This document shows, in pieces, positions 14,054-27,242 of a stretch of 64,000 bases of DNA. Positions within the stretch are counted from its first letter, which is position 1. Each line of letters begins with the position of its first letter. Source of the stretch: Capnocytophaga cynodegmi DSM 19736 (lineage in GTDB: Bacteria; Bacteroidota; Bacteroidia; Flavobacteriales; Flavobacteriaceae); the NCBI RefSeq assembly GCF_000379185.1, contig NZ_KB900738.1, positions 1 to 64,000 of the forward strand, read 5' to 3'. A program made the position numbers and the translations under genes. Below the pieces are notes generated by a model. That model was not told the origin of the DNA, made no database searches, and was given only the letters and a program-made list of their open reading frames with translations.

Positions 14054-14149
14054 ATCAAAATAATCAGAATTGGAGATTTCAAACTTCAAAAAATTAGCAA
14101 ATAACAGATTGATTATTAATACAAATCCGTAATTTTTAGATTTTTTTTA

Positions 14150-14338
14150 CTTCAGGAAGCTAAATTATTGTTTTAAGAAACTAAAATATTGCCTCAAGAA
14201 GCTAAATTATTGTTTCAGAAAACTAAAATATTGCCTCAAGAAGCTAAATTATTGTCTCAGAAAACTAAAATATTGTTTCAAGAAACTAAAATATTGCTTC
14301 AGGAAACTAAAATATTGATTCAAGAAACTAAATTATTG
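14150..14338. repeat. Nine-copy 21-bp tandem repeat
   Basis: Nine head-to-tail units of 21 bp end at 14170, 14191, 14212, 14233, 14254, 14275, 14296, 14317 and 14338. Each has the core AA(A/G)CTAAA(A/T)TATTG preceded by YTCARGA-like sequence. Two unit subtypes exist, one with GAAGCTAAATTATTG and one with AAACTAAAATATTG, and they alternate in the first half, which suggests past duplication of a 42-bp dimer. The period is a multiple of three, yet there is no start codon, so it is read as an intergenic minisatellite rather than protein-coding. Confidence 0.9.
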
Positions 14339-14398
14339 TATTTAAAATAAATAGTTTTTCTTCACAAACAAAAAAATAGCACACACAAGAATTAAAAA

Positions 14399-17458: not shown

Positions 17459-19342
17459 TTATTTCAATTCCTGAAAATTGCGTTTGATAAAATCGGTAAG
17501 TTCTTTTCCTTTCAAAAGTCCTTGCGAAAGTCGTGCTAAATCAAAAGCTTGTTTGATGAGGCTTTGTTTTTCGTTTTCGTCCGCTGTATTTAGTATCGAG
17601 GTTGCCAAAGGCGAATTGGTATTAACCACCAAATGATACATTTCAGGGAAATTCCCCATTCCGAACATTCCGCCACCGCCCGTAGCACTCATTTCTTTCA
17701 TACGACGCATAAATTCAGGCTGATTGATACTAAAAGGTGTGCTATCGCTGTCCAAATCTTCCAATTGCACCACAAAACCTTCACTCGAAATGCTTTTTTC
17801 GATGCTTTCTTTAAGCGATGTTTTTTCTTCTTCCGAAAATTTAGAAATTGTAGTGTCCTCTTTTTGAATCAGTTTGGAAATTGGAGCCGAATCCACTCGA
17901 GCAAAAGTCAAGTTTTCGTTATCGTATTCCAACTTCTGAATTAAATGCGACACAATAGGCGAATCCAAAAGCAACACTTGGTATCCTTTTTCTTTCGCCT
18001 GTTCAATAGCAGCGTGTTGTACCTCTTTATTTTGAGCGTAAAGCACCACTAATTTACCATCTTTATCGGTTTGTTGGTCTTTTAAGGCTTCTTTAAGCTC
18101 CGAAAGCGTATAATACTGGTCATCTACCGTTGGATAAAGCACAAAATCCCCTGCTTTTTCGTAGAATTTCGGCTCGGAAAGCATTCCATACTCCAAAACA
18201 ATCTTAATATCGTTCCATTTTGATTGAAAATCCTCACGATTTGTATTGAAAAGCGATTTTAATTTGTCGGAAACCTTTCTGGTAATATAATTTGCGATTT
18301 TTTTAACATTGCCATCGGCTTGTAAGTACGAACGCGACACGTTGAGCGGAATATCTGGCGAATCAATAACTCCTTTAAGCATTGTTAAAAATTCTGGAAC
18401 AATTCCCTCCACATTATCTGTTACAAAAACCTGATTTTGATACAACTGAATGCGGTCTTTTTGGATTTGCATATCCATTGATAGTTTTGGGAAATACAAA
18501 ATTCCCGTTAAATTGAACGGATAATCCACATTTAGGTGAATGTGAAACAAGGGGTCGTCAAACTGCATCGGATAAAGTTCACGATAGAAGTTTTTATAGT
18601 CCTCGTCTTGCAAATCGGCAGGTTGTTTTGTCCACGCCGGATTTGGGTTATTTACAATATTGTCAACGGTTTGATATTCGGTTTTGTAATTTTCGTCGGC
18701 ATTTTCAGGACGAGGAAGTGGCTCTTGTTTGGTTCCAAATTTAATCGGAATTGGCATAAATTTGTTGTACTTACGTAGCAATTCCTCAATGCGATGTTCT
18801 TCCAAAAATTCGGTAGAATCTTCGGCTATGTGTAAGATGATTTCCGTACCTCTTTCTGACTTTTCGGCAGGTTCAAGAGTATATTCAGGAGAGCCATCAC
18901 ACGTCCATTTTACGGCAGGAGCATCAGTGTACGATTTGGTGATGATTTCCACTTGGTTTGCCACCATAAAAGCAGAGTAAAACCCAAGCCCGAAATGCCC
19001 AATTACACCTGCATCTTTGGCAGTATCTTTGTATTTTTCTAAAAATTCTTCTGCTCCTGAAAAAGCAATCTGATTGATATACTTTTCCACCTCTTCACCC
19101 GACATCCCAATACCTTGGTCGATGATATGTAAGGTTTTATTTTCCTTATCAATCTTCACTTCGATGATAGGATTTCCGTACTCTACTTTTGCTTCGCCAA
19201 TTTGGGTTAAGTGCTTTAATTTCAGCGTAGCATCGGTAGCGTTAGAGATGAGTTCCCGAAGGAAAATTTCGTGGTCGCTGTATAAAAATTTCTTGATAAG
19301 TGGAAAAATATTTTCCACCGAAACATTAATATTTCCTTTCAT
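17459..19342 (-). CDS. htpG: Chaperone HtpG (Hsp90)
   Basis: Bacterial Hsp90, an ATP-driven dimeric chaperone. The 627-residue length is normal. The N-terminal GHKL ATPase shows the ELISNATDATLKLKHL helix, DQGIGM and the glycine-rich lid GHFGLGFYSAFMVA. The middle domain has the catalytic-loop arginine block LNVSRSYLQADGNVKKI and the C-terminal dimerisation domain follows, without the eukaryotic MEEVD tail. A Gly/Met-rich insertion (GGGGMFGMGNF) lies near residue 545. It is divergent from the trp leader across about 250 bp. Confidence 0.97.
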   Translation of the reverse strand: MKGNINVSVENIFPLIKKFLYSDHEIFLRELISNATDATLKLKHLTQIGEAKVEYGNPIIEVKIDKENKTLHIIDQGIGMSGEEVEKYINQIAFSGAEEFLEKYKDTAKDAGVIGHFGLGFYSAFMVANQVEIITKSYTDAPAVKWTCDGSPEYTLEPAEKSERGTEIILHIAEDSTEFLEEHRIEELLRKYNKFMPIPIKFGTKQEPLPRPENADENYKTEYQTVDNIVNNPNPAWTKQPADLQDEDYKNFYRELYPMQFDDPLFHIHLNVDYPFNLTGILYFPKLSMDMQIQKDRIQLYQNQVFVTDNVEGIVPEFLTMLKGVIDSPDIPLNVSRSYLQADGNVKKIANYITRKVSDKLKSLFNTNREDFQSKWNDIKIVLEYGMLSEPKFYEKAGDFVLYPTVDDQYYTLSELKEALKDQQTDKDGKLVVLYAQNKEVQHAAIEQAKEKGYQVLLLDSPIVSHLIQKLEYDNENLTFARVDSAPISKLIQKEDTTISKFSEEEKTSLKESIEKSISSEGFVVQLEDLDSDSTPFSINQPEFMRRMKEMSATGGGGMFGMGNFPEMYHLVVNTNSPLATSILNTADENEKQSLIKQAFDLARLSQGLLKGKELTDFIKRNFQELK

Positions 19343-19558
19343 TTCTTATGAGATAATTTAATGATTAAAAGATTAAAAAAGCTCAAAAAATCAAACGATT
19401 TTTGACTTACGAAAATTGCTTTGGCAAAAAAAATACCAATGTTTTAAAAATGTCAATTTGTCAGTAATCATCAATATAAGTTTCTTTCAAAAAAGCAGAA
19501 AGAAGGTTGTTTTGTTTTCATATTTACTTCACTTATTTTTTTAGATTGTGCGTATTTT

Positions 19559-19589
19559 TTTGCATATTTAAAAATCTTTTTTACATTTG
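19559..19589 (+). promoter_or_regulatory. trp operon promoter
   Basis: A -33 TTTG (19559-19562), 19-nt spacer and -7 TACATTTG (19582-19589) match the Bacteroidota layout. With a start site about 6-7 nt after the -7 box, transcription would begin essentially at the leader-peptide ATG (19595). The promoter strongly resembles that of sufE (39126-39156) along its whole length. Confidence 0.75.
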
Positions 19590-19594
19590 CCCCG

Positions 19595-19654
19595 ATGAAA
19601 TTATTTAGCAATACATATTGGTGGTGGCTTTCAAAATCTTGTTCAAGGTCTTGA
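19595..19654 (+). CDS. trpL: trp operon leader peptide
   Basis: A 19-residue open frame, MKLFSNTYWWWLSKSCSRS, lies between the trp promoter and trpE. Three consecutive TGG codons (19619-19627) form the regulatory Trp run. Just downstream lie segments able to form alternative hairpins, including a terminator (19708-19742), the hallmark of ribosome-mediated attenuation. When Trp-tRNA is scarce the ribosome would stall on WWW and favour the antiterminator; when it is plentiful the terminator would form. The ATG falls at the predicted start of transcription, so the mRNA may be leaderless. This is read from sequence only, but the combination is hard to explain by chance. Confidence 0.85.
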   Translation: MKLFSNTYWWWLSKSCSRS

Positions 19655-19656
19655 AA
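19640..19656 (+). promoter_or_regulatory. trp leader segment 2 (protector hairpin / antiterminator arm)
   Basis: The segment TGTTCAAGGTC (19640-19650) can pair with GGCTTTGACA (19708-19717), the first arm of the terminator, over ten base pairs with one bulged T and two G-T pairs. Locally TTCAA/TTGAA (19642-19646 with 19651-19655) can close a small hairpin that would sequester it. It begins 13 nt after the last Trp codon, just beyond the footprint of a stalled ribosome. Confidence 0.6.
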
Positions 19657-19707
19657 GGTTACTTATTGTTTTAAATTCCATAAGAAAATTAAACTTTTAA
19701 TAATATA

Positions 19708-19742
19708 GGCTTTGACATTAATTTGTTGAAGCCATTTTTTTT
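19708..19742 (+). terminator. trp attenuator terminator
   Basis: GGCTTTGACA (19708-19717), loop TTAATT, TGTTGAAGCC (19724-19733) form a 10-bp stem with two G-T pairs, followed by eight T (19735-19742), only 11 nt before the trpE ATG. Its location between a Trp-rich leader peptide and trpE marks it as the regulated terminator. Confidence 0.85.
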
Positions 19743-19753
19743 ATACAAAAATT

Positions 19754-21172
19754 ATGTTTGAAAGAAAAATACACTTAAAAACCATTGTGAAATCCGCGTT
19801 GGGAGATTTATTTACTCCTGTGGGAATTTATCTTAGGCTTCGTGACCAATTTCGAGATACAATTCTTTTAGAAAGTGCAGGAAAACAAGGAGAGGATAAC
19901 AATTTTTCCTTCATTGCTATCAACGCTATTGCTGGAATTGAAATACGCAACTATAATGAAGCAGAAATAAAATTTTCAAATGAGAATGCTGAAAAAATAA
20001 GCCTTAAAGGCGAAAAACTAACCGATATATTACAAGGTTTTTCGAGTAGTTTTATATGTGAAAAACCCAATCACGACATCGGAAAAACAGCACAGGGACT
20101 TTTCGGTTACACATCATACGATGCTATTCCTTTCTTTGAAGGAATAAAGTTTAAGGAACAATCACAGGAAAATAAAATCCCGTTGCTTCGTTATCGTCTT
20201 TATCAATACGTTATTGCAATTAATCATCATAACGATGAACTTTTTATAATAGAAAATATCATAAAAGGTTTAAATTCAGAAGTTTCAATTATTGAAAACA
20301 TTATTCATCAAAAGAATGCTCCTGTCTTTCCTTTTGAAAAAGTAGGTGAAGAAAAATCCAATTTAAGCGATACTGACTTTTTGGAAATGGTGGAAAAAGC
20401 ACAAATGCATTGTAAAAGAGGTGATGTTTTTCAGTTGGTTTTGAGCAGAAGATTTCATCAGAAATTCCGTGGAGATGAATTCAATGTGTATCGAGCCTTA
20501 CGTAACATCAATCCTTCTCCTTATTTATTTTTCTTTGATTATGGAGACTACAAACTCATTGGATCAAGCCCTGAAAGTCAGATTATTATAAAAGATAAAA
20601 AAGCTATAATTCACCCAATTGCAGGTACTTTTAAACGAACTCACAGCATCGAAAACGACTTAAAAGCAGCTGAAAGGTTAAAACAAGATCCTAAAGAGAA
20701 TGCCGAGCATATTATGTTGGTCGATTTGGCAAGAAATGACCTTAGCATCTACGGAAAAAACGTAAGAGTTTCAAAACTCAAAGAAATTCACTTTTTCTCA
20801 CACGTAATCCATATGGTAAGTGAAGTTGTCGCTGATGTTTCATCGGAGCAGAATCCTTACGAAATGATTTCCAGCACTTTCCCTCAAGGAACCCTCAGCG
20901 GAGCTCCCAAATTTCGGGCAATGGAACTCATCAATCAATATGAGAAAACATCTCGTTCTTACTACTCTGGGTGTATCGGTTTTGTAGGTTTCGATGGTAG
21001 TTGCAATCAGGCAATTATGATCCGTACTTTTTTGAGTAAAGAAAATACTCTTTTTTATCAGGCAGGAGCAGGAATTGTTTCAAAATCAGTACCTCATAAT
21101 GAACTTCAGGAAGTAAATAACAAACTTGAAGCCTTAAAGAAAGCCATTGAATTAGCACAGAAAATATATTAA
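19754..21172 (+). CDS. trpE: Anthranilate synthase component I
   Basis: TrpE converts chorismate to anthranilate using ammonia supplied by TrpG. The 472-residue protein shows the N-terminal regulatory motif LLESAG (residues about 38-43), the LLES block associated with tryptophan feedback binding. The chorismate-binding domain carries FQLVLSRRF, IGSSPE, HPIAGT, DLARNDLSIYG, FPQGTLSGAPKFRAMELI and QAGAGIV. ATG at 19754 follows the attenuator by 11 nt. First structural gene of trpEGDCFBA, with trpG 22 nt downstream. Confidence 0.97.
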   Translation: MFERKIHLKTIVKSALGDLFTPVGIYLRLRDQFRDTILLESAGKQGEDNNFSFIAINAIAGIEIRNYNEAEIKFSNENAEKISLKGEKLTDILQGFSSSFICEKPNHDIGKTAQGLFGYTSYDAIPFFEGIKFKEQSQENKIPLLRYRLYQYVIAINHHNDELFIIENIIKGLNSEVSIIENIIHQKNAPVFPFEKVGEEKSNLSDTDFLEMVEKAQMHCKRGDVFQLVLSRRFHQKFRGDEFNVYRALRNINPSPYLFFFDYGDYKLIGSSPESQIIIKDKKAIIHPIAGTFKRTHSIENDLKAAERLKQDPKENAEHIMLVDLARNDLSIYGKNVRVSKLKEIHFFSHVIHMVSEVVADVSSEQNPYEMISSTFPQGTLSGAPKFRAMELINQYEKTSRSYYSGCIGFVGFDGSCNQAIMIRTFLSKENTLFYQAGAGIVSKSVPHNELQEVNNKLEALKKAIELAQKIY

Positions 21173-21194
21173 TTTTTTCAAAATAGAAAAACGT

Positions 21195-21761
21195 ATGAAA
21201 ATCCTTGTTTTTGATAATTACGATAGTTTTACATATAATTTAGTTCAAATATTGGAACAAATTACTGATGGAGAAATAGATGTGGTTAGAAATGACCAAA
21301 TTTCATTGGAAGAAATAGCAAAATACGACAAAATTATTCTCTCTCCAGGACCAGGCATTCCACAGGAAGCAGGTATTCTGTTGGATTTAATAAAAACTTA
21401 CGCACCTACCAAACCCATCTTTGGCGTTTGCTTAGGGCAACAAGCAATTGCCGAAGCCTTTGGCGGAAGCCTCATAAATCTTTCAGAAACTTATCACGGG
21501 GTTGCAACAGAATCACATCAAATTAAAGAACACAACATTTTTAAAAATCTACCCAAAACTCTTGAAGTGGGCAGATATCACTCTTGGGCTGTAAATCCCG
21601 AGGATTTCCCCGATGAATTGGAAATCACCTCCATAGATGACAAAGGAATGATAATGAGCTTAAAACATAAAATCTATAACCTACACGCCGTTCAGTATCA
21701 CCCAGAGAGCATACTTACCCCTGAAGGTAAAGAAATCTTAAAAAATTTTATGGAAATTTGA
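21195..21761 (+). CDS. trpG: Anthranilate synthase component II (glutamine amidotransferase)
   Basis: A class I glutamine amidotransferase that releases ammonia from glutamine for TrpE. The 188-residue domain has SPGPGIP (oxyanion region), the nucleophile elbow GVCLGQQAIAE and the catalytic His-Glu in QYHPES. It is a stand-alone subunit, not fused to TrpD. Similar proteins can double as PabA for folate synthesis; the operon position favours TrpG. Confidence 0.95.
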   Translation: MKILVFDNYDSFTYNLVQILEQITDGEIDVVRNDQISLEEIAKYDKIILSPGPGIPQEAGILLDLIKTYAPTKPIFGVCLGQQAIAEAFGGSLINLSETYHGVATESHQIKEHNIFKNLPKTLEVGRYHSWAVNPEDFPDELEITSIDDKGMIMSLKHKIYNLHAVQYHPESILTPEGKEILKNFMEI

Positions 21762-21776
21762 TAATATGGTAATTTT

Positions 21777-22763
21777 ATGAAACAAATTTTAGGATATTTA
21801 TTTAATCACCAAACACTTACTCGAGCCGAAGCAAAGTCGATAATGCTTGAAATTTCTGAAAACAAATTCAATGAAAGTGAAGTTATGGCTTTCATTACCG
21901 TTTTTTTGATGCGAAACATCACAATTGATGAAATGGAAGGATTTCGTGAAGCTCTTTTAGAACTGGCTCTTCCTGTAGATTTACAAACTACTGATTTGAT
22001 TGATATTGTAGGAACAGGAGGTGACGGAAAAGATACATTTAATATTTCAACGTTAGCGAGTTTTGTAGTGGCTGGAGCTGGGCAAAAGGTTGCTAAACAA
22101 GGAAATTACGGAGCCTCATCTGTTAGTGGTTCTTCTAACGTATTGGAAAAAATTGGCTATCGCTTTAAGAACAACTCATCAGAATTACAAGAAGATTTAG
22201 AGAAAGCTAACATTTGTTTTCTACACGCTCCACTTTTTCACCCAGCTCTAAAAAGCGTTTCCGCACTTCGTAAAAACTTAGGAATAAAGACTTTTTTCAA
22301 CTTCTTAGGACCTTTGGTGAACCCTGCCAACGTTAATTTTTCCCTCATAGGTGTTGCGAATCTCGAAATAGCAAGGCTTTATCAGTATATCCTGCAAAGA
22401 CAAAATATTTTTTTCACCATTGTAAATAGCCTTGACGGATATGATGAAATTTCATTAACGAATGAAACAAAAATTATTAATAAAAATGGTGAGAAGATTT
22501 TTTCAGCCTCAGAACTTGGATTTGAAAACATATCACAAGAAAGCTTGTATTCAGGCGGAAGTCAAGAAGAATCCGCCAAAATTTTTATGAATATTTTGAA
22601 CGGAAAAGGAACGAAAGAACAAAATTCTGTAGTGATAGCAAATGCAGCAATGGCTCTTTTTTCAACCGAAAAGTTCGGTTCGTATTCAAATTGTATTGAA
22701 ATGGCGAAAGAGAGTTTGGAAAGTAAAAAAGCTTTGAATGTTTTGAATGCTCTAATAAATTAA
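21777..22763 (+). CDS. trpD: Anthranilate phosphoribosyltransferase
   Basis: Transfers phosphoribose from PRPP to anthranilate. The 328-residue protein shows the family hallmark GTGGDGKDTFNIST (PRPP and metal binding) and KQGNYGASSVSGSSNVLEKIG, then FLHAPLFHPALKSV and FFNFLGPLVNPAN. It lies 15 nt after trpG and 11 nt before trpC. Confidence 0.96.
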   Translation: MKQILGYLFNHQTLTRAEAKSIMLEISENKFNESEVMAFITVFLMRNITIDEMEGFREALLELALPVDLQTTDLIDIVGTGGDGKDTFNISTLASFVVAGAGQKVAKQGNYGASSVSGSSNVLEKIGYRFKNNSSELQEDLEKANICFLHAPLFHPALKSVSALRKNLGIKTFFNFLGPLVNPANVNFSLIGVANLEIARLYQYILQRQNIFFTIVNSLDGYDEISLTNETKIINKNGEKIFSASELGFENISQESLYSGGSQEESAKIFMNILNGKGTKEQNSVVIANAAMALFSTEKFGSYSNCIEMAKESLESKKALNVLNALIN

Positions 22764-22774
22764 AATCAACTAAA

Positions 22775-23551
22775 ATGAATATTTTAGACAAAATAATTCA
22801 GTACAAAAAAGAGGAAGTTTCTATTTCGAAAAAGCGTATATCAATTCAGGAACTAAAAAATTCGGAATTTTATGAAAGAGAGAGTTTCTCATTAAAACAA
22901 AGCATACAACAACGGACAGGAATTATAGCCGAATTTAAGCGAAAATCGCCCAGTAAAGGCATCATAAATAACGTTTCCAGTGTGCAAAATGTGTGTTTGG
23001 CATACGAAAAATTTGGAGCCAGTGGTGTTTCAATTCTTACTGATAAAAACTTTTTTGGTGGTAATTCGGAAGATATTTTACAGGTCAGAAAAAGCATTAA
23101 ACTGCCCATTCTTCGCAAAGATTTTATGATAGATGAATATCAATTTTATGAAGCTAAAGCAATGGGAGCTGATGTGGTTTTATTAATAGCTTCTTGTTTG
23201 TCAACTTCTCAAACACAGGAGTTTACACACATAGCCAAGGAATTAAATCTTGAAGTTTTACTTGAAATACACAACGAATATGAATTGAAACATATAAATC
23301 AAAATATTGACATTGTCGGTATTAACAACAGAAATTTAAAAGATTTTAAGGTAGATTTGCAACATTCAGTCATTTTAAAAAATAGTTTACCAAAGGATAA
23401 ACTTTCAGTTGCTGAGAGTGGCATCTATTCTGAAGAAGACTTTAAATTCCTCAGAAACAAAAGCTTCGATGCTTTTTTGATGGGAGAATATTTTATGAGA
23501 AATCAAAGTCCTGAAAAGGCATTCGAAAACTTTGTAAAGAACACAAAATGA
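22775..23551 (+). CDS. trpC: Indole-3-glycerol phosphate synthase
   Basis: Closes the indole ring from CdRP. The 258-residue TIM barrel contains IAEFKRKSPSKG (catalytic Lys and Glu region), GVSILTDKNFFGG, LPILRKDFMIDEYQ, INNRNLKDFKVD and AESGIYSEED, the standard phosphate-binding and active-site loops. It is monofunctional. Its stop overlaps the start of trpF by 4 nt (ATGA), suggesting translational coupling. Confidence 0.96.
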   Translation: MNILDKIIQYKKEEVSISKKRISIQELKNSEFYERESFSLKQSIQQRTGIIAEFKRKSPSKGIINNVSSVQNVCLAYEKFGASGVSILTDKNFFGGNSEDILQVRKSIKLPILRKDFMIDEYQFYEAKAMGADVVLLIASCLSTSQTQEFTHIAKELNLEVLLEIHNEYELKHINQNIDIVGINNRNLKDFKVDLQHSVILKNSLPKDKLSVAESGIYSEEDFKFLRNKSFDAFLMGEYFMRNQSPEKAFENFVKNTK

Positions 23552-24189
23552 GCTTAAAACTAAAGGTTTGCGGACTTACTCTCGAAAATCAAATCGAAGA
23601 TTTGATAGCCTTAAACATCAATTTTTTAGGATTTATTTTCTATGAAAAGTCTCCCAGATTTGCACTTAAAAAACTATCTTTAAACAAATTAAGAAATTTT
23701 GAGCATACAGGAAAAGTCGGAGTTTTTGTTAATGAGAGTTTAGAAAAAGTTTTAGAAATTTCGGAAAAATCATCGCTTAACTTTGTACAGCTCCACGGCG
23801 ATGAAACTCCAAATTTCGTAGAAAATTTACGCAAGAAATTAAATCCTGAAATAAAAATCATAAAGGTTGTACGAGTTAATAGTGCAGGAATAAAAATTCC
23901 TGAAAATATTGATGAAATCAATTTTTTACTTTTTGACACGGATAGCAAGAGTTACGGCGGAACAGGAAAAACTTTTCCTTGGCAATGGCTTGGCAACATT
24001 GAAATTCCTTTACCTTTTTTCTTAAGCGGAGGAATTTCTTTAGGAAACATTAAAAATATAGAAAAAATAACTACAAAACCTTTTTCATTGGATATAAACT
24101 CTAAATTTGAAAGTGAAGCAGGAATAAAAGATTTAACAAAGATAAAGCAAATAAAACATTACATAGACAACTTCAACAAGCTAAAATAA
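23548..24189 (+). CDS. trpF: Phosphoribosylanthranilate isomerase
   Basis: Isomerises PRA to CdRP. The 213-residue TIM barrel starts with KVCGLT (the catalytic Cys motif KxCG) and shows FIFYEKSPR, VGVFVNE, QLHGDE, the catalytic Asp in LLFDTDSKSYGGTGKTF, SGGIS and DINSKFESEAGIKD. The ATG overlaps the trpC stop (ATGA). Substitution of the usual VDSSSGVE by LDINSKFES is within family variation. Confidence 0.95.
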   Translation: MSLKLKVCGLTLENQIEDLIALNINFLGFIFYEKSPRFALKKLSLNKLRNFEHTGKVGVFVNESLEKVLEISEKSSLNFVQLHGDETPNFVENLRKKLNPEIKIIKVVRVNSAGIKIPENIDEINFLLFDTDSKSYGGTGKTFPWQWLGNIEIPLPFFLSGGISLGNIKNIEKITTKPFSLDINSKFESEAGIKDLTKIKQIKHYIDNFNKLK

Positions 24190-24198
24190 ATTGAACTT

Positions 24199-25383
24199 AT
24201 GGACTTTAAAAACCCCGATAAATACGGCTATTACGGAGATTTTGGAGGAGCTTTTATCCCCGAAATGCTCCATCCGAATGTGGAAGAATTAGAAAATAAA
24301 TATTTGGAAATTATTGAAAGTAAAGAATTTAATAAAGAGTTCAACCAACTTTTAAAGGATTATGTTGGTCGCGAAACACCACTGTATTTTGCTGAAAATC
24401 TCAGTAAAAAGTATCAAACTCAAATTTATCTTAAAAGAGAAGACCTCAACCATACAGGAGCTCATAAAATCAACAACGCTTTAGGACAAGCTCTTTTAGC
24501 AAAAAAACTGGGAAAAAATCGTATCATTGCCGAAACAGGGGCTGGGCAGCACGGAGTAGCAACAGCCACAGTTACAGCTCTTTTAGGATTAGAATGCATC
24601 GTTTATATGGGAGAAACAGACATAAAACGACAAGCATTAAATGTAGCACGAATGAAAATGCTTGGTGCAGAAGTTCGCTCCGTAACATCAGGTTCAAAAA
24701 CACTAAAAGACGCTGTTAATGAAGCCCTTAGAGATTGGATAAATAACCCAACACCAACACATTACATTATTGGAAGTGCCGTAGGTCCTCATCCTTTTCC
24801 AGATATGGTTGCTCGGTTTCAATCCGTTATTTCACAAGAAATAAAACTTCAGTTGAAAGCCAAAATTGGTAGAGAAAATCCCGATTATATAATTGCCTGT
24901 GTAGGAGGTGGAAGCAATGCTGCTGGGTCGTTCTATCATTTTGTAAATGAGCCAAATGTAAAAATTATTGCTACTGAGGCCGCTGGGTTAGGATTGGAGT
25001 CTGGCAAATCAGCTGCTACAACTCAGCTTGGTTCGTTAGGAATTTTACACGGAAGTCAAAGCCTTGTAATGCAAGATAATGATGGGCAAGTAATTGAACC
25101 TCACTCAATTTCCGCTGGACTAGACTACCCAGGTATAGGACCTTTTCACGCCAATCTCTTCAAACAAAAAAGAGCCGAATTTTTGAGTATTACCGATGAA
25201 GAAGCCTTAAAATCAGCATTCGAAATTACCCAAATGGAAGGAATCATTCCTGCTTTGGAAAGTTCACACGCACTTGCTGTTTTATCAAAAAAGAAATTCA
25301 AAAAAGACGATGTTGTGGTTATAACGCTTAGCGGAAGAGGCGATAAGGACATCGAAATTTATTCTAAAAACGTAGATTTTTAA
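24199..25383 (+). CDS. trpB: Tryptophan synthase beta chain
   Basis: PLP enzyme condensing indole with serine. The 394-residue protein has [16 protein letters not shown] at the N-terminus, the PLP lysine in [28 protein letters not shown], the phosphate-binding loop [12 protein letters not shown] and the C-terminal LSGRGDKDI. Normal length, adjacent to trpA as expected for the alpha2beta2 channelled complex. Confidence 0.97.
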
Positions 25384-25393
25384 ATATTTAAAA

Positions 25394-26131
25394 ATGAAAA
25401 AGTTAAATATATATTTCACAGCAGGAATTCCGAAGTTGGAAGACACAGCTAAAGTAGCAAAATTGATACAAGAAGCGGGAGCAGATATGATGGAAATTGG
25501 AATACCTTATTCCGACCCAGTTGCCGATGGAAATGTAATCCAAAATGCACACGCACTCGCTCTGCAAAACGGAATGAATATCAACACATTATTTAAAGTC
25601 TTGGAAGATATAAAGGAGTCAGTAAAAATTCCTAAAATATTAATGGGATATTTGAATTCTGTAATTCAATATGGTTTTGAAGATTTCTGCATAAAATGCA
25701 AAGAAGTAGGCGTTTACGGGCTCATCTTACCAGATTTACCTCCAATCGAATTTGAAAGAAAGTACAAAAAAATTGTAGAAAAATACGGACTGAATTTCAC
25801 ATTTTTAGTAACTCCTGAAACATCAATTGAAAGAATAAAATATCTGGACTCAATTTCTTCAGGATTTTTGTATGCCGTTAGTAGTTCTTCAACAACAGGT
25901 AAAGTAGATAATAATTTAGAAAATAGTCCGTATTTGAAAAAGTTAGCTGAGTTGAAACTTAAAAATCCTATTTTTGTAGGATTTGGCATTAAAAACAAAG
26001 TTGATTTCTCAAATGCTACTAAACATACACAAGGAGCAATAATTGGCACTTCTTTTGTGAAAATTCTATTGGAAAATCCAACAAATTGGGAAGAAAAAGC
26101 CGAAAGTTTTATAAAATCAATAAGAGAATAA
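25394..26131 (+). CDS. trpA: Tryptophan synthase alpha chain
   Basis: Cleaves indole-3-glycerol phosphate to indole, which is channelled to TrpB. The 245-residue TIM barrel has FTAGIPKLEDT, the catalytic Glu and Asp in MEIGIPYSDPVADG, GLILPDLPPIE and GFGIKNK; the C-terminus is slightly shorter than in E. coli. Last gene of the operon. No clear terminator follows before asnA, so read-through into asnA is possible. Confidence 0.96.
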   Translation: MKKLNIYFTAGIPKLEDTAKVAKLIQEAGADMMEIGIPYSDPVADGNVIQNAHALALQNGMNINTLFKVLEDIKESVKIPKILMGYLNSVIQYGFEDFCIKCKEVGVYGLILPDLPPIEFERKYKKIVEKYGLNFTFLVTPETSIERIKYLDSISSGFLYAVSSSSTTGKVDNNLENSPYLKKLAELKLKNPIFVGFGIKNKVDFSNATKHTQGAIIGTSFVKILLENPTNWEEKAESFIKSIRE

Positions 26132-26207
26132 TTTTAGAAAAATATAGTTACTAAAGATTTTATCATCTTTTAAAGAATTTAATAAATTATCAACTAAAAA
26201 ATTAATC

Positions 26208-27242
26208 GTGAGTTACTTAATAAAACCTAACAATTACAAACCTCTTTTGGACTTGCAACAAACTGAATTAGGTATTCAGAAAATTAAAGACTTTTTCCAA
26301 GTAAATTTATCATCTGAGCTTCGTTTACGACGAGTAACAGCTCCGCTATTTGTTCTGCAAGGTACAGGATTAAACGACGATTTAAGCGGAACCGAACGTG
26401 CCGTCAATTTTCCTATCAAAGATATGAACGAACAACGTGCTGAAGTGGTACATTCACTCGCCAAATGGAAACGCGTAATGCTTGCTGACTATGGAATTGA
26501 AAAAGGTTATGGAATTTATACCGATATGAATGCCATTCGCGCTGATGAAGAACTCGGAAATTTACACTCTCTTTATGTTGACCAGTGGGATTGGGAAATG
26601 GTAATTTCAGAACAGCAACGTAATGTTACATTTCTCAAGAATATTGTTCAACGTATTTACGCCACACTATTGCGGACAGAATATTTGGTTTGTGAGAGTT
26701 TTTCCAAAATTAAACCCATATTACCTCCAGAAATTCATTTTATCCATTCGGAAGAACTATTACAACGTTACCCACAACTAACACCTAAAGAACGAGAAGC
26801 AGCTATTGCTAAGGAATTTGGAGCTGTTTTCATTATAGGGATTGGAGGAAAACTTTCCAATGGAGAAAAACACGACGGACGTGCACCCGACTATGACGAT
26901 TGGACTACATCAACAGGAAATTATGCGGGTTTAAATGGCGATATTATACTTTGGAATCCTATACTGGAACTTCCTTTTGAAATTTCCTCAATGGGAATAC
27001 GTGTAGACAAAGAAACTCTATTACGACAATTGCAATTAGAAGGTAAAGAAGACCGACTGAATTTATATTTTCACAAGAGATTAATAAACAATACCTTACC
27101 TCTTTCCATTGGTGGAGGCATCGGGCAATCCAGATTGTGTATGTTTTTGCTACATAAAGCTCATATTGGTGAAATTCAAGCAAGTATATGGCCAGATGAT
27201 ATGCGTAAAGAATGTAACAAACACAATATCCCGCTGATATAA
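26208..27242 (+). CDS. asnA: Aspartate-ammonia ligase (asparagine synthetase A)
   Basis: Makes asparagine from aspartate, ATP and ammonia, without glutamine. The 344-residue protein has class II synthetase-like blocks: RRVTAPLFVLQGTGLNDDLSG, HSLAKWKR, GIYTDMNAIRADE, HSLYVDQWDWE, and near the C-terminus GGGIGQSRLCMFLLHKAHIGEIQ. The start is GTG (26208). It lies 76 bp after trpA with no strong terminator between, so partial co-transcription with trp is possible. AsnA rather than the glutamine-dependent AsnB is clear from the sequence. Confidence 0.95.
   Translation: MSYLIKPNNYKPLLDLQQTELGIQKIKDFFQVNLSSELRLRRVTAPLFVLQGTGLNDDLSGTERAVNFPIKDMNEQRAEVVHSLAKWKRVMLADYGIEKGYGIYTDMNAIRADEELGNLHSLYVDQWDWEMVISEQQRNVTFLKNIVQRIYATLLRTEYLVCESFSKIKPILPPEIHFIHSEELLQRYPQLTPKEREAAIAKEFGAVFIIGIGGKLSNGEKHDGRAPDYDDWTTSTGNYAGLNGDIILWNPILELPFEISSMGIRVDKETLLRQLQLEGKEDRLNLYFHKRLINNTLPLSIGGGIGQSRLCMFLLHKAHIGEIQASIWPDDMRKECNKHNIPLI

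Follow-up and report, generated by a model that had tools for sequence, protein, structure and literature searches.

The described system closest to the element analyzed here is Bacteroid-trp (RF01692), a cis-regulatory RNA described by Weinberg et al. in 2010 (PMC2864571) and named the tryptophan peptide leader in Rfam. A transcriptome study of Flavobacterium psychrophilum reports strong clues for leader-peptide attenuation in front of amino acid biosynthesis operons (PMC9723704), and attenuation was surveyed comparatively by Lopatovskaya et al. (2010), as cited in PMC4833913. The trpL leader of Sinorhizobium meliloti is leaderless, its mRNA beginning at the ATG (PMC7298713). Our search of the open library yielded no experimental work specific to trp in Bacteroidota.

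Here we analyzed a stretch of DNA of 64,000 nucleotides (the window, meaning the whole of that stretch) from a Bacteroidota genome of 2.66 Mb. Like RF01692, it carries a Bacteroidota leader RNA with a Trp-codon leader ORF directly upstream of trpE. From the arrangement of its parts, their conservation in relatives and folding models, we conclude that trpEGDCFBA is very probably controlled by a classical ribosome-mediated (leader-peptide) transcription attenuator.

Leader ORF and competing stems upstream of trpE

The trp genes of the window are arranged in the order trpE-G-D-C-F-B-A, ending at 26131 and followed by asnA, and all seven are open. The genes were assigned as follows.

17459-19342, minus strand: htpG, upstream neighbor of the promoter, leader and trpE
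19754-21172, plus strand: trpE, anthranilate synthase component I (NCBIfam trpE models, best E value 5e-121, below curated cut-offs; TrpE tree)
21195-21761, plus strand: trpG (TIGR00566, above cut-off)
21777-22763, plus strand: trpD (TIGR01245, above cut-off)
22775-23551, plus strand: trpC (NF001377, above cut-off)
23548-24189, plus strand: trpF (PF00697, above cut-off)
24199-25383, plus strand: trpB (TIGR00263, above cut-off)
25394-26131, plus strand: trpA (TIGR00262, above cut-off)

Despite the sub-cut-off model scores, the product of trpE is clearly placed among TrpE proteins. Elsewhere in the window, a region lying between polA and the gene next to it (14132-14357) contains tandem-like repeats which gave overlapping, multi-register BLAST matches in genomes G003, G008 and G016.

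Between htpG and trpE, the following elements were recognized.

19559-19562, plus strand: -33-like element TTTG of a Bacteroidota sigma-A promoter, predicted from the sequence, 19 nt from the -7 element
19582-19589, plus strand: -7 element TACATTTG (consensus TAnnTTTG), predicted from the sequence, separated from the leader ATG by 5 nt
19595-19654, plus strand: leader peptide ORF MKLFSNTYWWWLSKSCSRS, 19 residues, ATG at 19595 and stop TGA at 19652-19654 (direct reading)
19619-19627, plus strand: control codons TGG TGG TGG, three consecutive Trp (direct reading)
19628-19657, plus strand: protector (1:2) hairpin, CTTTCAA 19628-19634 with TTGAAAG 19651-19657 and inner pairs (RNAalifold consensus and free fold of the window)
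19640-19650, plus strand: antiterminator 5' segment (segment 2), pairing with 19708-19717 when the ribosome is at the Trp codons (folding)
19708-19717, plus strand: segment 3, the terminator 5' arm, common to the antiterminator (terminator scan and folding)
19708-19733, plus strand: terminator hairpin of 10 pairs (19708-19717 with 19724-19733), loop of 6, -12.1 kcal/mol
19735-19742, plus strand: T8 run of the intrinsic terminator, after one A (direct reading)

The TTTG/TAnnTTTG promoter consensus is known for the phylum Bacteroidota. The preliminary description had placed a 19-residue leader peptide with three consecutive Trp codons between the promoter and trpE, and a 10-bp terminator with eight T at 19708-19742. 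Both were read directly in the sequence, and the terminator was also picked up by a terminator scan, in which the 1.2-kb region held 2 terminator-like sites compared with 0.5 expected from shuffles. The coordinates proposed for a competing 10-pair antiterminator (19640-19650 with 19708-19717) were likewise right, this being the minimum-energy fold with the ribosome placed at the second Trp codon. Its pairs run from T19640-A19717 through G-C and T-A to a bulge at T19643 and then from C19644-G19714 to C19650-G19708, giving 10 pairs that include two G-U, with one bulged T.

A short ORF containing WWW is rare by chance, being found in 1/360 control 500-bp stretches and 1/254 stretches of the window (about 1 in 300) and in 0/5000 shuffles of the trpE upstream region. 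Genome-wide, a search for the WWW-leader pattern returned 11 sites (forward and reverse) versus 6 in the control and, when the matched letters were read, only the site in the window was recognizable as a leader.

We infer that the leader is translated, that ribosomes stall within it, that termination depends on Trp and that transcription starts near its first codon. RNA polymerase would start at the leader ATG or a few bases away. With charged tRNA-Trp scarce, the ribosome would stall at the three Trp codons and leave 19640-19650 free to pair with 19708-19717, so that the terminator would be blocked and the operon transcribed. With charged tRNA-Trp present, the ribosome would instead reach the stop at 19652-19654 and cover 19640-19650, 19708-19717 would pair with 19724-19733, and the polymerase would terminate at 19735-19742.

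Origin of the operon and a second leader

HtpG, encoded next to the operon, is 98-99% identical in four same-genus genomes. At the threshold used, TrpE was found in 2/20 genomes of the genus, namely, that of the window and one other (49% identity). Compared with Kaistella/Epilithonimonas-type proteins, the window TrpE, TrpG and TrpD show 79%, 83% and 73% identity, respectively; within the genome's own family, the corresponding values reach no more than 54%, 64% and 60%. In a quick TrpE tree, the window sequence fell within the Weeksellaceae clade, a strongly supported placement, and lay at a distance from its same-genus counterpart. The term flavobacterial, used in the preliminary description for this control, is thus accurate at the level of the order only, since the operon clusters with Weeksellaceae (Kaistella/Epilithonimonas) and not with the genome's own family. 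Homology to two close relatives (G003 and G008) extends up to 19465 and begins again at 26209, delimiting one further feature.

19466-26208, plus strand: block of promoter, attenuator and trpEGDCFBA, not present at this site in close relatives (comparison with G003 and G008)

In G003 and G008, htpG and asnA are separated by other DNA of about 3.7 kb, whose genes look by eye like metF and metE. The GC content of the block is 33.4%, compared with 33.1-34.9% in the flanks, and composition therefore argues neither for nor against acquisition. The block looks acquired and is most simply read as a joint arrival of promoter, attenuator and operon from a Kaistella/Epilithonimonas-like donor. Such an apparent transfer of operon and attenuator would mean that leader-peptide control can change families as a unit.

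An operon that appears to have been horizontally acquired could have brought with it an attenuator that is now a non-functional remnant, and in its 3' half the window leader does diverge more than any other of its clade. However, the start, the stop, the Trp run, the T8 run and both alternative stems are all intact, the promoter fits the phylum consensus, and the seven trp genes are open; we therefore consider decay of the attenuator very improbable.

A separate trpB is retained by most of the genus, a TrpB match being present in 17/20 genomes. Several of the same-genus solo trpB genes (L141, L143, L144, L145 and L146) lie behind a leader ORF with WW or WWW; a conventional terminator was recovered by script at two of these leaders, and a different hairpin was picked at the three others. 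One of them is the second trpB of the window's own genome (G000:C14:520-1644, L146), which has the leader VSFIDVNNAWWSSHNLMRRKCD and a GTG start. In two same-genus genomes, Bacteroid-trp-type leaders were found before trpB rather than trpE (L132 in G018 and L133 in G011). These arrangements suggest that tryptophan attenuation may also control indole salvage (trpB) in the genus.

Conservation of the leader and folding of its stems

Bacterial genomes were searched with TrpE and the best 80 loci were kept, mostly from Weeksellaceae and Chitinophagaceae, a set that is weighted to near relatives because the search keeps the best 80 loci. Two were left out since their sequence ends too near trpE to judge. 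Among the remaining loci of this set, all 78 had, in the equivalent position, a leader ORF containing one or more Trp codons, and 76/78 had adjacent Trp codons (WW or WWW). The two others, near-identical loci of Chitinophagaceae MAGs (L057 and L063), have only one Trp codon (MNTINISNNGWHTYSSLG), and all other parts of the device are intact. In a separate, smaller and even sample of the phylum, 35 of the 158 genomes had a strong TrpE match; 29 loci of this sample fetched beyond the window, together with one same-genus locus, gave 30 further upstream regions. A Trp-rich leader ORF was present upstream of trpE in 30/30 of these, versus 1/360 and 1/254 control stretches. The Trp run of the window is therefore kept in relatives, as the preliminary description had asked to be checked. 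Nearly always, 7-9 residues precede the first Trp codon in the leaders of relatives. Many Chitinophagaceae-set leaders (L037-L083) end in TAATG, the stop overlapping a new ATG.

The same description had called for compensating changes in the stems, and these were found. In the Weeksellaceae set, RNAalifold (33 leaders) gave two-sided changes at 5/8 pairs of the protector hairpin. For the Chitinophagaceae set it returned no pairs at all, since the spacer, variable in length, did not align, and it missed the long-range antiterminator on MAFFT alignments of both sets, again because spacer length varies. Changes in the long-range stems were counted instead with anchors on conserved segments, the window row being read by hand. 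Several terminator pairs of the Chitinophagaceae set were compensated, for example, C-G 34/T-A 3/T-G 3 and C-G 24/T-A 9. In the antiterminator, Riemerella columbina and Cloacibacterium rupense (L030 and L035) have GCT:AGC in place of GTC:GAC; for most antiterminator pairs, any variation is confined to one of the two bases, so that covariation in this stem is thin.

The direction of the switch was examined by folding each leader only to the terminator loop, before the 3' arm exists, with the ribosome represented by a mask extending 13 nt downstream of the start of the A-site codon. Across 73 leaders, the terminator 5' arm was paired upstream with a mean probability of 0.77 when the ribosome was at the Trp codons versus 0.20 when it was at the stop, and this sequestration was higher at the Trp codons in 73/73 (Wilcoxon P value of 1e-13). 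The window leader gave 0.95 versus 0.45, and a control with the E. coli trpL sequence gave 0.71 versus 0.00. Shuffles reached the Trp-versus-stop difference of the window in 2.5% of cases, a modest result alone, and part of this signal could reflect coding constraint because shuffling reorders bases inside the leader ORF. When complete leaders carrying the ribosome masks were folded at full equilibrium (window and 72 relatives), no switch was seen, the terminator winning nearly always. The switch must therefore be kinetic, as in the textbook model of attenuation, which relies on the succession of steps in transcription.

The nucleotides after the first Trp codon vary between clades and track the stems, not a motif of the peptide. 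This bears on the idea that the leader peptide senses free tryptophan in the ribosome (TnaC-like stalling), or acts by translational coupling, in place of stalling on a shortage of charged tRNA. The residues after WWW are kept within each clade (WWWHTNS and WWWLSNS), which could mean a peptide-level function, but they are encoded by protector and antiterminator nucleotides, which is enough to explain their conservation, and they are not the same across clades. Moreover, the polarity, with a biosynthetic operon and a terminator that forms once the ribosome is at the stop, agrees with stalling on starvation, and we regard sensing of free tryptophan or coupling as highly improbable. T-box (tRNA-sensing) and TRAP-type protein-binding leaders regulate trp genes in Firmicutes and also end in a terminator, but that such a leader works the terminator here, the short ORF being incidental, is improbable in the extreme: tmRNA, at a different place, was the only Rfam family to reach its cut-off in the window, and no T-box model did, the GAG/UAG triplet series of TRAP is absent from the leader by direct reading, and the element conserved across families is a Trp-codon run in a translatable frame, contrary to either reading.

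For the classical attenuator, the position of the promoter raises a further point. The gap between the -7 box and the leader ATG is 4-5 nt in 28/33 Weeksellaceae-set leaders and 4-7 nt in 35/41 Chitinophagaceae-set leaders, and 16-20 nt in most sampled trpE loci of the genome's own family. In Bacteroidota, transcription start sites lie a few bases after the -7 box. We therefore predict a leaderless or nearly leaderless leader mRNA in the Weeksellaceae and Chitinophagaceae sets. Such a start is relevant because Bacteroidota mostly lack Shine-Dalgarno sequences and leaderless mRNAs are reported to be rare. Their share is 3.7% in Bacteroides thetaiotaomicron (5' UTR under 10 nt) (PMC7366714) and is given as 5.5% in the F. 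psychrophilum transcriptome study (PMC9723704). An attenuator that needs prompt ribosome loading would be a good test case for how loading is achieved.

Comparison with described trp leaders

The window element has the parts of a ribosome-mediated trp attenuator, namely, a leader ORF, an intrinsic terminator, a protector hairpin and an antiterminator exclusive of the terminator (the last computationally, in 73/73 leaders). RF01692 Bacteroid-trp is the same device, and the window copy likewise lies before trpE in a Bacteroidota genome and includes a Trp-codon leader. Against the RF01692 model, the window scored 21 bits (E value of 4.4), below the gathering cut-off of 49 bits. The window copy is not filed under the family because of this score, although position, gene context and design match. 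The model ends at the terminator 5' arm, and the middle of the window leader differs from it in sequence and pairing. The cut-off was exceeded in 13/60 relatives, 12 times before trpE and once before a solo trpB (L132 in G018), and there was no match at 12 other TrpE loci searched, L019 giving only a tRNA. Our description of the leaders is clear enough to be used for extending the model.

E. coli trpL resembles the window in having consecutive Trp codons, protector, antiterminator and terminator in the same order and in giving the same response to masked folding. It differs in having two adjacent Trp codons rather than three and a normal 5' leader, whereas the start in the window is predicted at or near the leader ATG, and no sequence relationship between the two is shown. 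S. meliloti trpL likewise has Trp codons and a terminator before trpE, with an mRNA start at the ATG that was mapped there and is only predicted in the window, and it is alphaproteobacterial. The attenuators suggested for F. psychrophilum are of the same class and order as that of the window, and the main text of that study names no trp case (PMC9723704).

The proposal in the preliminary description that trp attenuation is established in flavobacteria is supported by conservation and folding, but it is not new for the phylum (RF01692, PMC2864571; PMC9723704). We lean, cautiously, towards a wider picture that joins a leaderless or nearly leaderless leader mRNA of the Weeksellaceae/Chitinophagaceae type with movement of a promoter-attenuator-operon block between families, here into a mostly trpE-less lineage whose solo trpB often lies behind a Trp-codon leader, giving two attenuators of different descent per genome. 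Attenuation outside the proteobacteria was already known; what is added here is the near-universality of the device before trpE in the sampled Bacteroidia, subtypes that had been missed, the predicted near-leaderless start and the apparent transfer. In the sampled Bacteroidia, control of trp by a leader-peptide device is the rule before trpE, well past the reach of the present Rfam model.
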